Below the pieces are notes generated by a model. It was not told the origin of the DNA and ran no database searches. It saw only the letters and a program-made list of their open reading frames with translations. From contig CASDPF010000008.1 of NCBI GenBank assembly GCA_949282215.1, positions 1 to 64,000 on the forward strand: a stretch of 64,000 nucleotides of DNA. The letters run 5' to 3'. The position numbers and the translations under genes are program-made. This document shows positions 26,660 to 59,462 of the stretch, piece by piece (the stretch's first letter is position 1; each line of letters begins with the position of its first letter). This DNA is from an uncultured bacterium. GTDB taxonomy: Bacteria; Cyanobacteriota; Vampirovibrionia; Gastranaerophilales; Gastranaerophilaceae.

Positions 26660-26688
26660 TTGAATTTTTATAATAAATTTGTTAAAAT
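26660..26688 (+). promoter_or_regulatory. Promoter of G-tract leader 1 / pilin gene 4
   Basis: TTGAAT, a 17-nt spacer and TAAAAT. The same hexamers and spacer length occur in front of leader 3. It starts 3 nt after the preceding stop codon. Confidence 0.6.
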
Positions 26689-26720
26689 AAGACTATCAAA
26701 TAAAAAAGATAGTCTTATTT
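26689..26720. repeat. Inverted repeat just downstream of the leader 1 -10 box
   Basis: AAGACTATC and GATAGTCTT pair over 9 bp with a 10-nt loop, then ATTTT. It could be the terminator of the preceding gene or an operator covering the transcription start. Leader 3 has a repeat in the same place; leader 2 does not. Confidence 0.55.
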
Positions 26721-26736
26721 TGCAAAAGGAGGATGT

Positions 26737-26787
26737 ATGCAAAAACAGCTAATAGATAGAATTTCGGGGGGGGGGGCTGCCGACTAA
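26737..26787 (+). CDS. Leader ORF 1 containing the G11 run
   Basis: A 16-codon ORF, MQKQLIDRISGGGAAD, with a strong AAAGGAGG ribosome-binding site 4 nt upstream. The eleven-G run encodes three Gly (GGG) codons and flanking bases. The bases encoding DRIS plus the G run are identical in all three leaders. With one extra G (or a -1 ribosomal shift) the reading frame would instead continue to TGA at 26868-26870, giving a 44-residue peptide very similar to the equivalent in leader 2. Function as a regulatory leader peptide is inferred. Confidence 0.6.
   Translation: MQKQLIDRISGGGAAD
26766..26776 (+). repeat. Homopolymer run of 11 G in leader 1
   Basis: An unbroken G11 in an AT-rich genome, preceded by GATAGAATTTC. 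Runs of this length are prone to slippage in replication, transcription and translation. The same length occurs at 51770 and 58548. Confidence 0.9.
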
Positions 26788-26922
26788 CAGTTAGGACAAG
26801 CATTTCCGACTTAGACCTCCGATTAGATGAAAAAGAGCTGAGAAGTAAGCCGTGCCAGAAGACACGGTGATTTTTGATGCAAAATTTCTAAAAAGCATGT
26901 AATAAAAACAAACGGAGGATTT
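26788..26922 (+). promoter_or_regulatory. Pilin 4 leader RNA: anti-Shine-Dalgarno switch region
   Basis: CCTCCG at 26816-26821 lies 39 nt after the G run and can pair either with the G run (CGGGGG) or with the pilin ribosome-binding site CGGAGG at 26913-26918. A hairpin with arms CCGTG and CACGG and an 8-nt loop lies between at 26850-26867. From the G run to the hairpin this leader is nearly identical to leader 2, with a 38-nt block without any change. I do not recognise a known riboswitch class. Confidence 0.6.
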
Positions 26923-27726
26923 ATGAAAAAGAGAAATGCTTTTACATTGGCAGAAGTGCTTATTACATTAGGAATAATAGGTGTTGTTGCAGCTATGACA
27001 TTACCTGCACTTATAAATAAAACAAAAAACAAAAAATTGCATACAGCATTTTTAAAAACCTATGCTGAACTAAATCAGGTAGCGATGTTATTCAAGGCCG
27101 ATTACGGAATAACAGTCCCGGAAGCAGTGACAAATAGTGGAGGTATAATGCGAGAAAATAGTAAGAAGATAATAGCTTATTATAAAGGTGCTAAGTCTGT
27201 TAATTCTGGAGGTCAGGGCACTGATGACGGCGAAGGTAATTATCTTGCATTTTATTCATTGAGTACATTAAATGGCAAATCTTATTCAGGGGGTGCAAAT
27301 ACAAGCGGAAGAAATTCTTCTTTTTTCTGTGATTCTTCAGCTTTTACACCTACTCAATCCGGAGCTATAATGATATTTAATGATGCACCACGTGTGGAAG
27401 GTCAAAATGGACCTGTTGTCTGTGTAGATATAAATGGTAAGAAAAAGCCTAACCGTTATGGAATAGATTATTTTATGTTTATTTTTACACTTGACGGACG
27501 GGTTATTCCTGTGGGACAGGAGCATAAAGACAATCCTCCTGTATGTAACAGTGCATCAGGTTCTTGTGTTAATTTTAATAATGTAGGGCCTGAGTATTGT
27601 TCTAATACATCAAATGATATTTCAAAAAATACATCTTGTGCTTATTATGCACTGACAAATACGCACCCGACAAAAGAGGGAAAAGATTACTGGACAGATT
27701 TTTTAGGCGAGGTATACAGCAGATAA
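26923..27726 (+). CDS. Type IV pilin-like protein 4 (G-tract leader type)
   Basis: Encodes 267 residues, the longest of the pilin-like set. The start ACGGAGGATTTATG is identical in the three G-tract genes. Prepilin signal MKKRNA|FTLAEVLITLGIIG. The globular part has VDINGKKKPNRYGIDYFMF, a Gly/Ser/Asn-rich region near residues 110-130 and eight Cys, most in the last 130 residues. No divergent regulator is present; control probably lies in the leader. The stop codon touches the ftsL stop codon (0 nt gap, convergent). Confidence 0.9.
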   Translation: MKKRNAFTLAEVLITLGIIGVVAAMTLPALINKTKNKKLHTAFLKTYAELNQVAMLFKADYGITVPEAVTNSGGIMRENSKKIIAYYKGAKSVNSGGQGTDDGEGNYLAFYSLSTLNGKSYSGGANTSGRNSSFFCDSSAFTPTQSGAIMIFNDAPRVEGQNGPVVCVDINGKKKPNRYGIDYFMFIFTLDGRVIPVGQEHKDNPPVCNSASGSCVNFNNVGPEYCSNTSNDISKNTSCAYYALTNTHPTKEGKDYWTDFLGEVYSR

Positions 27727-51740: not shown

Positions 51741-51791
51741 ATGCAAAAATCGCTGATAGATAGAATTTCGGGGGGGGGGGCTACCAACTAA
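51741..51791 (+). CDS. Leader ORF 2 containing the G11 run
   Basis: A 16-codon ORF, MQKSLIDRISGGGATN, with AAAGGAGG 4 nt upstream. With one extra G or a -1 shift the frame stays open to TGA at 51872-51874, giving a 44-residue peptide whose C-terminal part (LTVRTSISDLDLRL, then KPCQVTR) closely matches the shifted product of leader 1. Of about a dozen base differences downstream of the run, three are silent in that frame and some others are conservative, so the evidence for selection on the peptide is only suggestive. Confidence 0.6.
   Translation: MQKSLIDRISGGGATN
51770..51780 (+). repeat. Homopolymer run of 11 G in leader 2
   Basis: Identical length and identical upstream 11 bases (GATAGAATTTC) to the runs in leaders 1 and 3. 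Confidence 0.9.
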
Positions 51792-51929
51792 CAGTTAGGA
51801 CAAGCATTTCCGACTTAGACCTCCGATTGAACAAGAAAGAGCTGAAAAGCAAGCCGTGCCAAGTGACACGGTGAATTTTGATGCGAAAATTTTGAAAATA
51901 GGTAATCAAAATATAAAGACGGAGGATTT
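51792..51929 (+). promoter_or_regulatory. Pilin 7 leader RNA: anti-Shine-Dalgarno switch region
   Basis: CCTCCG at 51820-51825 lies 39 nt after the G run and matches both the run and the pilin ribosome-binding site CGGAGG at 51920-51925. The hairpin arms CCGTG and CACGG lie at 51854-51871 with an 8-nt loop. The layout and spacings equal those of leader 1. Confidence 0.6.
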
Positions 51930-52631
51930 ATGAAAAAGAAAAATGCTTTTACCTTAGCAGAGGTACTGATAACGTTAGGAATAATCGGGATAGTAGCAGC
52001 AATGACATTACCGACATTGATTGAAAAACATAAAAAACAAGTGACAGTTAATAAATTAAAAAGGAGTTATACTACAATATCTCAAATGTTCAACATGGCA
52101 AGAAAAGATTATGGAGATCCTAATGAATGGAGTTTTGAGTTTGGAGAACTAAATTCTAACAGTTTTATAGAAATTTTACCCAGAATTGCAAATACTTATT
52201 TTTTGCCATATTTGGATGTTATGGATAATTGCGGAATTTCTTGTTCAAAAATACCAAATAATTATAAATATTTAAATAATAGTCTTATTAATCAATTTCA
52301 TAGAAATCTGTATTATACAATTTTCCTAAAAGATGGTTCTATTCTGTTTTTTTCTGTTAATAATAATGGTGTAGAATTATATGATTTGATAGTAGTAATT
52401 GATATCGATGGTATAAAAGGAGAAAATACTATGGGGAAAGATGTATTTTCTTACTATTTAAATACAAAAACTGTTGCAAAAAGTAATTTTTGGGGATTAA
52501 CGGGTACAAATGTTAAACGAGAATCTCTTTTAAATGATGGCAGGGGGTGTAATAAAAATGGCTTGGGTCAGTATTGCGGAGCTTTAATTCAGTATGATGG
52601 TTGGGAAATAAAGGATGATTATCCTTGGTAG
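51930..52631 (+). CDS. Type IV pilin-like protein 7 (G-tract leader type)
   Basis: Encodes 233 residues after ACGGAGGATTT. Prepilin signal MKKKNA|FTLAEVLITLGIIG. The signature is degenerate but present (VIDIDGIKGENTMGKDVFSY). C-terminus YDGWEIKDDYPW, shared with paralogues 3 and 9. It has four Cys. No divergent regulator. A terminator follows directly. Confidence 0.9.
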   Translation: MKKKNAFTLAEVLITLGIIGIVAAMTLPTLIEKHKKQVTVNKLKRSYTTISQMFNMARKDYGDPNEWSFEFGELNSNSFIEILPRIANTYFLPYLDVMDNCGISCSKIPNNYKYLNNSLINQFHRNLYYTIFLKDGSILFFSVNNNGVELYDLIVVIDIDGIKGENTMGKDVFSYYLNTKTVAKSNFWGLTGTNVKRESLLNDGRGCNKNGLGQYCGALIQYDGWEIKDDYPW

Positions 52632-58435: not shown

Positions 58436-58464
58436 TTGAATATGATTAAAATATATGCTAAAAT
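58436..58464 (+). promoter_or_regulatory. Promoter of G-tract leader 3 / pilin gene 8
   Basis: TTGAAT, a 17-nt spacer and TAAAAT, the same hexamers as for leader 1, starting 9 nt after the preceding stop codon. Confidence 0.6.
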
Positions 58465-58505
58465 TAATAGAGAAATATTTATTATTTCTCTATTAATTTT
58501 TATGG
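58460..58505. repeat. Long inverted repeat at the leader 3 transcription start
   Basis: Arms of 18 nt at 58460-58477 and 58483-58500 are perfectly complementary around a 5-nt loop and end in TTTTT. The left arm overlaps the -10 box. As in leader 1, it could be the terminator of the preceding gene or an operator. Confidence 0.65.
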
Positions 58506-58518
58506 AAAGGTGGAATAT

Positions 58519-58578
58519 ATGCGTAATACAGTTGTAGATAGAATTTCGGGGGGGGGGGTAGCTGCTTACAAGCTGTAG
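58519..58578 (+). CDS. Leader ORF 3 containing the G11 run
   Basis: A 19-codon ORF, MRNTVVDRISGGGVAAYKL, with GAAAGGTGG upstream. With one extra G or a -1 shift at the run there is no stop before the pilin gene, so the leader ORF and the pilin gene would be read as one 314-residue protein. In leaders 1 and 2 the same shift ends at a TGA just after the hairpin. Confidence 0.6.
   Translation: MRNTVVDRISGGGVAAYKL
58548..58558 (+). repeat. Homopolymer run of 11 G in leader 3
   Basis: Same length and same preceding GATAGAATTTC as in leaders 1 and 2, although the sequence further downstream is much diverged. Confidence 0.9.
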
Positions 58579-58697
58579 AGCGTCTTTTTCCTTTATGCCT
58601 CCGCAAAATAAACGAAAAATTTACTGTGTCATTAGGCACGGAGTTTTGCAGTGCAAATTCTTTTGAAATGATAGAAAAATTTTATAACGGAGGATTT
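58579..58697 (+). promoter_or_regulatory. Pilin 8 leader RNA: anti-Shine-Dalgarno switch region
   Basis: CCTCCG at 58598-58603 is again 39 nt after the G run and can pair with the pilin ribosome-binding site CGGAGG at 58688-58693. The hairpin is CTGTG with CACGG at 58624-58641: one arm changed C to T, which keeps pairing as a G-U, and the loop is again 8 nt. Much of the remaining sequence differs from leaders 1 and 2, so the kept elements are probably functional. Confidence 0.62.
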
Positions 58698-59462
58698 ATG
58701 AAATCGAAAAAAGCTTTTACGTTAGCTGAGGTTCTAATTACGCTCGGCATAATCGGGATAGTAGCGGCTTTGACAATACCGCAGCTAATAAAAGATTATA
58801 AGGGGAGGGGTTTTGAGACGCAATTTAAAAAAGCTTATAACATAGCTCAACAGGTTATTATGTCTGCTAAAAACGATGTTGGGGTAGGTAATTTTACTTC
58901 TTTTTGTGTATCTTACACCGAAGATTCCGGATATTATAACAGTAATATATGTTATAGAGCTTTGTCAAAGGCTTTAAGCGGTGTCGAGACAAAGAGTACG
59001 TATATTTATGATCCAAAATATCAGATAAAAAGAGATGATGAGATAAGGACTTATAATAACAGGCAGGAAGCCACTATTTCTTCAATTGCAGGTTTTGGTA
59101 ATTTATGGCAATTATACAAAAATAAGGATGGAGCATTAATGCAATTTTCAATAATTGAGGGTAGAGTCTATATATCGATTGATACAAACGGATTGAATAA
59201 GCCTAATCAATTAGGTCATGATATTTTTGTTATGTATACAGATAGTCGAGATAGAGTGGTAGGAAACAAGCAATCAAGGCTATATACAGACGAAGAACTT
59301 GATAATATGGATTTTGAACACGAATATGACAAAGAACGTGCAGGAAATCCTTGCAGTGCAAAGTCTAATCAGAAAGCAAACGGAATAGGGTGTTCCTGGT
59401 ATGCAATAAATGATATAAATCCTGATACCGGAAAAAACGGTTATTGGAAGAATTTACCTTAA
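58698..59462 (+). CDS. Type IV pilin-like protein 8 (G-tract leader type)
   Basis: Encodes 254 residues from ATG 58698 after ACGGAGGATTT; the in-frame GTG at 58626 would bury the prepilin signal. Signal MKSKKA|FTLAEVLITLGIIG, with AALTIPQL where most paralogues have AAMTLPTL. Signature SIDTNGLNKPNQLGHDIFVM. It has five or so Cys and ends GCSWYAINDINPDTGKNGYW, resembling paralogue 4 near its end. The 3' end overlaps the convergent maf gene by 9 nt. Confidence 0.9.
   Translation: MKSKKAFTLAEVLITLGIIGIVAALTIPQLIKDYKGRGFETQFKKAYNIAQQVIMSAKNDVGVGNFTSFCVSYTEDSGYYNSNICYRALSKALSGVETKSTYIYDPKYQIKRDDEIRTYNNRQEATISSIAGFGNLWQLYKNKDGALMQFSIIEGRVYISIDTNGLNKPNQLGHDIFVMYTDSRDRVVGNKQSRLYTDEELDNMDFEHEYDKERAGNPCSAKSNQKANGIGCSWYAINDINPDTGKNGYWKNLP

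Follow-up and report, generated by a model that had tools for sequence, protein, structure and literature searches.

Gonococcal pilE G4 antigenic variation involves a G-rich element upstream of the pilin gene, and in attenuation of the E. coli pyrBI type, translation of a leader ORF into the terminator region lifts termination. The leaders described here differ from pyrBI in that control would be exerted by DNA tract length and not by nucleotide levels. They differ from pilE in carrying a single G11 run inside an ORF that is presumed to be translated. Silent, pilS-like donors, which at pilE are cassettes without promoters, were not evident here, since nearly every copy had its own promoter-like site and most showed a −10-like sequence, a Shine-Dalgarno sequence and a start codon.

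The closest mechanistic precedent is found in S. gallolyticus pil1 and pil3, for which it was shown experimentally that changes in GCAGA repeats lengthen a leader peptide into a terminator and switch the pilus on (PMC3894217). A sequence-only reading of the DNA studied here had stated that nothing like its arrangement was described, which this precedent contradicts. As in pil1/pil3, a simple repeat lies inside a leader ORF 5′ of a pilus gene; the common repeat length gives a short peptide ending 5′ of an RNA structure and a frame change gives a longer one (PMC3894217). In our comparison the present arrangement differs from known pil1-type control in its repeat, which is poly-G and not GCAGA, in a start-site antisense element and in its genome-wide scale. 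The leader family of the window (the whole 64,000-nucleotide stretch analysed) appears to mask the pilin start by this element without a clear terminator, whereas leaders of the genome G007 have a predicted one; there are at least 62 copies in one genome, and the pilins are type IV-like and belong to Gastranaerophilales.

Poly-G contingency loci, such as those of Campylobacter and meningococcal hmbR/hpuAB (PMC3786947), likewise have a long G tract in the frame of a surface gene, with single-base changes setting the frame. The tracts described here share with poly-G phase variation a homopolymer of at least 8 nt in a coding region whose frame decides the product. Unlike the loci of PMC3786947, nearly all loci of a genome shared one out-of-frame state with an early stop, tract lengths were unusually constant, MutS was present, and the leader copies would act on a downstream gene. 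A literature search found no paper combining Gastranaerophilales and phase variation, nor one on pilin phase variation in Gastranaerophilales.

Leader layout and pairing at the pilin start

All the elements that had been listed for the first leader (promoter-like site, Shine-Dalgarno sequence, 16-codon ORF, G11, CCTCCG, hairpin and CGGAGG) were found in the sequence (Table 1). Two further copies in the window had the same layout, as the sequence-only reading had noted; its count of three leaders fell short, as at least 62 leader-type copies were present in the genome from which the window comes (the source genome). Runs of eight or more G were far above chance in the window, the three G11 tracts giving 12 overlapping matches against a shuffle mean of 0.19. 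No Rfam family (riboswitch, attenuator) matched at gathering score anywhere in the 64-kb window. Directly after the promoter-like site, where the transcript is expected to begin, copies 1 and 3 each had a strong hairpin and then a T run (26685-26720 and 58460-58500).

Table 1. Leader and pilin features of the three copies in the window
Feature	Copy	Position	Strand	Basis or remark
Promoter-like TTGAAT-17-TAAAAT with TG	1	26660..26688	+	
Leader-ORF Shine-Dalgarno AAGGAGG	1	26726..26732	+	kept in the 62-copy alignment
Leader ORF (uORF), 16 codons, MQKQLIDRISGGGAAD then stop	1	26737..26787	+	
G11 tract	1	26766..26776	+	
Antisense element AAGCATTTC...CCTCCG, complementary to pilin start region	1	26798..26821	+	folding, duplex energies
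AAGCATTTC part of antisense element	1	26798-26806	+	
CCTCCG, exactly 39 nt 3′ of G11	1	26816-26821	+	
Hairpin CCGTG/CACGG	1	26850..26867	+	folding
Pilin CGGAGG (26913-26918), start codon and codons 4-7	1	26913..26941	+	pairs with antisense element
Prepilin-type gene, 267 aa, ATG at 26923	1	26923..27726	+	N_methyl PF07963, E 3e-6
Leader ORF, 16 codons	2	51741..51791	+	
G11 tract	2	51770..51780	+	
Antisense element	2	51802..51825	+	
Hairpin	2	51854..51871	+	
Prepilin-type gene	2	51930..52631	+	
Leader ORF, 19 codons, MRNTVVDRISGGGVAAYKL then stop	3 (divergent)	58519..58578	+	
G11 tract	3	58548..58558	+	
CCTCCG of antisense element, also 39 nt 3′ of tract	3	58598..58603	+	
Hairpin CTGTGTC/GGCACGG, equal place, other sequence	3	58624..58641	+	folding
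Prepilin-type gene	3	58698..59462	+	G12 would make leader ORF continuous with gene

Folding of copy 1 revealed that the pairing exceeds the CCTCCG/CGGAGG helix, as AAGCATTTC also pairs with pilin codons 4-7 (−37.2 kcal/mol, z −4.0; the z values of copies 2 and 3 were −2.6 and −1.1). The conserved element AAGCATTTC...CCTCCG repeats in antisense the region where the pilin starts, namely its Shine-Dalgarno sequence and codons 4-7. When 84 distinct copies were folded, CCTCC/GGAGG was essentially 100% paired and the second helix mostly paired, and the duplex between leader and start in the window family reached −19.2 kcal/mol against −10.3 kcal/mol for shuffled leaders. A further match, CTCCAATT to AATTGGAG, was seen at L053 of the source genome. 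The window-family hairpin was a weak terminator candidate (−8.3 kcal/mol, poor T run).

The two-way, mutually exclusive pairing that had been proposed held in part: a helix between the G run and CCTCC lay within 1.6 kcal/mol of the main helix in copy 1, but it is a minority state, with a computed probability of 0.15 against 0.85 for CCTCCG:CGGAGG. The run thus seems to act mainly by setting the reading frame, and hence the site where the ribosome stops, and not as a pairing partner; for stalling on Gly codons, the other control suggested, no evidence was found. Run length as the likely control of pilin output was supported. Covariation of CCTCCG with the ribosome-binding site, on which the sequence-only reading had staked the pairing, was looked for in the leader family and was nearly absent, because both arms were almost invariant. 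RNAalifold on the leader alignment returned the hairpin only.

A second leader family, found in G007, shared no clear sequence with the window family beyond the uORF. Its tract is followed first by TTTGCGAAT and then by a hairpin (−11.6 to −14.2 kcal/mol), TTTTTT and GGAGATTCGCAAATG. The hairpin and TTTTTT form a predicted intrinsic terminator. These leaders had no CCTCC; TTTGCGAAT is antisense to the G007 pilin start, and the duplex of leader and start had an energy of −18.0 kcal/mol against −11.0 kcal/mol when shuffled. Leaders and starts swapped between the families paired more weakly (−14.9 and −10.2 kcal/mol versus −19.2 and −18.0 kcal/mol); this comparison serves in place of the covariation that the window family lacks.

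Copy number, reading frames and tract lengths

The source assembly (2.19 Mb, 45 contigs) contained 89 tracts of nine or more G, of which 81 lay just 5′ of a prepilin FTLAEV motif, and at least 150 pilin-type genes with N_methyl. Across Gastranaerophilaceae, tracts were abundant (0 to 116 per genome); they were scarce in the other sampled families of the order, at 0-5 per genome and up to 6 in one. Many contigs end at most about 300 bases from a G tract (for example C33, C36, C39 and C41 of G028), so these loci break assemblies and the pilin counts are probably underestimates.

Two arrangements were distinguished. Leader-type genes have the tract in a uORF apart from the pilin, which is started independently; in fused-type genes the pilin itself is extended at its N-terminus, and the extension holds the tract. 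Leader copies were also present outside the source genome, as had been predicted, and were collected from the source genome, G003, G007 and GTDB records, with one genome per species (92 copies, 68 distinct). CCTCC stood exactly 39 nt from the tract in 92/92 copies, which upholds the claim of an anti-Shine-Dalgarno element at fixed spacing to the run; one-base deviations of CCTCC at this distance occurred in only two of the 68 distinct copies. A similarity search with leader DNA beyond G000, G003 and G007 gave only short matches, to the pilin start or the spacer. The GTDB loci L138, L164, L192 and L228 seem to be loci already represented by G003.

The conserved block extends from the uORF through the pilin N-terminus, and the sequence outside it is unrelated between copies. 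Within it, the Shine-Dalgarno sequence, ATG and G11 of the leader ORF were conserved (62-copy alignment), and 56/63 leaders of the source genome had a −10-like sequence at most 75 nt from the uORF. The run was uninterrupted in at least 62 copies although adjacent bases vary freely. A single clear interrupted tract was seen, GGGGGAGGGGG at L441 (C13:102200-102900 of the source genome); its total length was still 11, making it a naturally locked allele, held in the frame with the stop. An extended −10 promoter-like sequence, TGTTAAAAT, was present between hairpin and pilin in about a third of the leader copies (16 in the source genome and 13 in G003, e.g. L036, L052 and L408), and may yield leader-free pilin transcripts that bypass the leader.

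In all 68 distinct leaders the assembled G11 frame reached a stop within 9-20 nt of the tract (at nt 9, 12, 15 or 18), always 5′ of the antisense element, which occupies nt 22-45. A second frame was open through this element in 68/68, and would be reached with G12 in 63 of them and with G10 in 5. The G10-open frame of L045, L186 and L388 continues into the pilin, so that these copies appear to bridge the leader and fused types; L305 is likewise a bridging copy with the open frame still fused. In G007 the open frame crosses TTTGCGAAT and ends in the 3′ arm of the predicted terminator.

Tract length differed in only 9-19% of leader pairs of the source genome (0.90 and 0.95 identity bins) and in 0% of those of G003. 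Close paralogs that differ were few (L422/L436, L301/L318 and the L276 pair), most pairs being equal. Of L422 and L436 of G007, with 97% flank identity, one had G12 (closed) and the other G11 (open), adjacent copies at L429 showed the same two lengths and states, and of the near-identical fused pair L301/L318 one was off and one on. Length deviants among the amplified leader copies were more often G10-like, and the ON length of the amplified window copies may be G10 or G12. Deletions in the flanks were offset by one extra G in two cases (L089 and L403). A count of stop-creating single variants per frame in the leader set (a stop-avoidance test) favoured no frame.

MutS_I was encoded in 34/36 genomes, including the source genome, so there is no general loss of repair; missing mismatch repair was accordingly rejected as the cause of poly-G abundance.

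Among the fused genes of six genomes, 119/136 were out of frame, the offset being a single G in nearly every case, and 17/136 (12.5%) were in frame; the fused layout was present in a seventh genome, G015, too. The shift needed was constant in direction within each genome, namely one G fewer in the source genome (16/20), G010 (20/22) and G021 (19/24) and one G more in G033 (41/50). The frame leading to FTLAEV contained no stop, in some genes over 60-100 codons. In the source genome and G033 the assembled frame stops at most five codons from the tract in nearly all fused genes while the third frame usually does not, so that two frames look designed, one to stop and one to be fused; G021 lacked this contrast. 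In one fused subtype the tract edge shifted, yet the tract always ended equally far from the ATG. At L332, L343 and L345 of G021, one long linker (SKLSRATSITPRATIELRS...) common to several genes lay between tract and pilin, resembling a dispersed repeat captured in frame.

Tract length as a proposed switch, and other readings

We consider it probable that the leaders act by slipped-strand phase variation of the leader ORF, which would open a translational (or terminator) block. Ribosomes would enter the short ORF, which has a separate promoter and Shine-Dalgarno sequence, and translate across the run of G. In the assembled G11 state the ribosome would halt 9-20 nt past the run, 5′ of the antisense element, and the pilin start would stay hidden (OFF). 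Slippage of the run to G12, or to G10 in older copies, would open the frame through the antisense element, and a ribosome in that frame would unfold it and allow pilin translation (ON). In G007 the open frame also enters the predicted terminator, and the closed frame would leave transcription terminated; for most of the family's remaining pilins, the open frame is simply joined to the pilin. The assemblies directly show which parts are present and conserved, how the frames run, which segments are complementary and where close paralogs differ in tract length. From these we infer uORF translation, repression by the fold, activation by ribosome passage and switching of tract length within a population.

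This reading is supported by the 81/89 tracts 5′ of a prepilin motif, the frames, the 39-nt spacing, the duplex energies, the open frame of the G007 leaders through antisense element and terminator, the fused pilins (119/136 out of frame, 17 in frame), the paralog pairs of unequal length, the flank deletions offset by an extra G, the tracts in surface-type genes such as Stealth, and S. gallolyticus pil1. It is weakened by the constant tract lengths, the presence of MutS, the near-absent covariation, the hairpin-only RNAalifold result, the lack of a favoured frame, length deviants that are more often G10-like and the possible TGTTAAAAT bypass. Constant lengths together with MutS do not point to simple hypermutability: either selection strongly favours the closed state, or a gene stored one G off yields product in its own right.

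The latter possibility leads to the main rival, programmed frameshifting, in which genes are stored one G off, RNA polymerase slippage or ribosomal frameshifting yields a small, steady fraction of pilin, and the conserved stop after the run is the in-frame terminator. We regard this as unlikely, yet it would account for the 119/136 fused genes that are off, the constant direction per genome, the early stop mainly in the assembled frame, the constant paralog lengths with MutS present, and the constant ATG-to-tract-end distance beside a variable tract edge. A conserved slippery run with a conserved off-by-one relation was indeed found, but a single fixed direction of shift was not, G033 requiring one more G where the other genomes require one fewer. 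The 17 in-frame genes, the near-identical paralogs of differing length and the glycan-type genes with equal tracts, which look like ordinary contingency loci, also speak against it. In its widest form, to which we give the same low weight, whole Gastranaerophilaceae pilin repertoires would be one G off and made by programmed slippage, with the direction reversed between genera and the leader versions coupling the shift to opening of the masked start or terminator.

The remaining explanations are less probable. Antisense repression may be real but answer another signal (temperature, a protein or an internal promoter), with the poly-G ORF a relic of fused ancestors; the bridging copies with an open frame still fused and the promoter-like sequence 3′ of the hairpin in many copies fit this, but a relic is improbable given the conserved uORF start and Shine-Dalgarno sequence and a run kept intact amid freely varying bases, with L441 the sole clear interruption. 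A rheostat, in which pairing of the run with CCTCC or ribosome stalling at its Gly codons would free the pilin site to a degree set by run length or the level of Gly-tRNA, could draw on the alternative helix and the fixed spacing; it is a little more doubtful still, and the fused genes, whose tract has no CCTCC partner and acts through frame, and the G007 leaders without CCTCC speak against it. Least probable is a DNA recombination element, in which the run and the conserved block would promote gene conversion among the pilins, a role that the G-quadruplex plays at gonococcal pilE: a conserved block bounded by unrelated sequence and contigs that frequently end at tracts speak for it, but the strict frame relations would be left unexplained.

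If phase variation is the mechanism, then with dozens of such loci any one cell would express only a small and changing part of its pilin set, with which the 12.5% of fused genes in frame agree. An abundant uncultured gut lineage would then possess phase-variable pilins in very large number (at least 150 pilin-type genes, 81 tract-controlled, in 2.2 Mb), with most of the fused pilins missed or truncated by gene callers. Leader-peptide phase variation would also have arisen more than once, the translational version hiding the start by an antisense copy.

G tracts in other genes

Poly-G tracts were also found outside the pilin genes. L072 of G000 and L394 of G003 (G11 at 1502) are Stealth-family (capsular phosphotransferase-like) genes with G11 just 5′ of CR1; both are shifted from the reading frame by a single G and resemble ordinary contingency loci. 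GT-D-like glycan genes at L055, L131 and L418 had G9-G13 near the C-terminus or N-terminus; of the tandem paralogs at L131, the one with G11 was out of frame and the one with G10 in frame. In G025, contig C18 carries at L292 and L293 clustered genes, methyltransferases among them, whose G10-G14 tracts in some cases sit at the 3′ end of the gene, a use of poly-G that differs from that in the pilin leaders.
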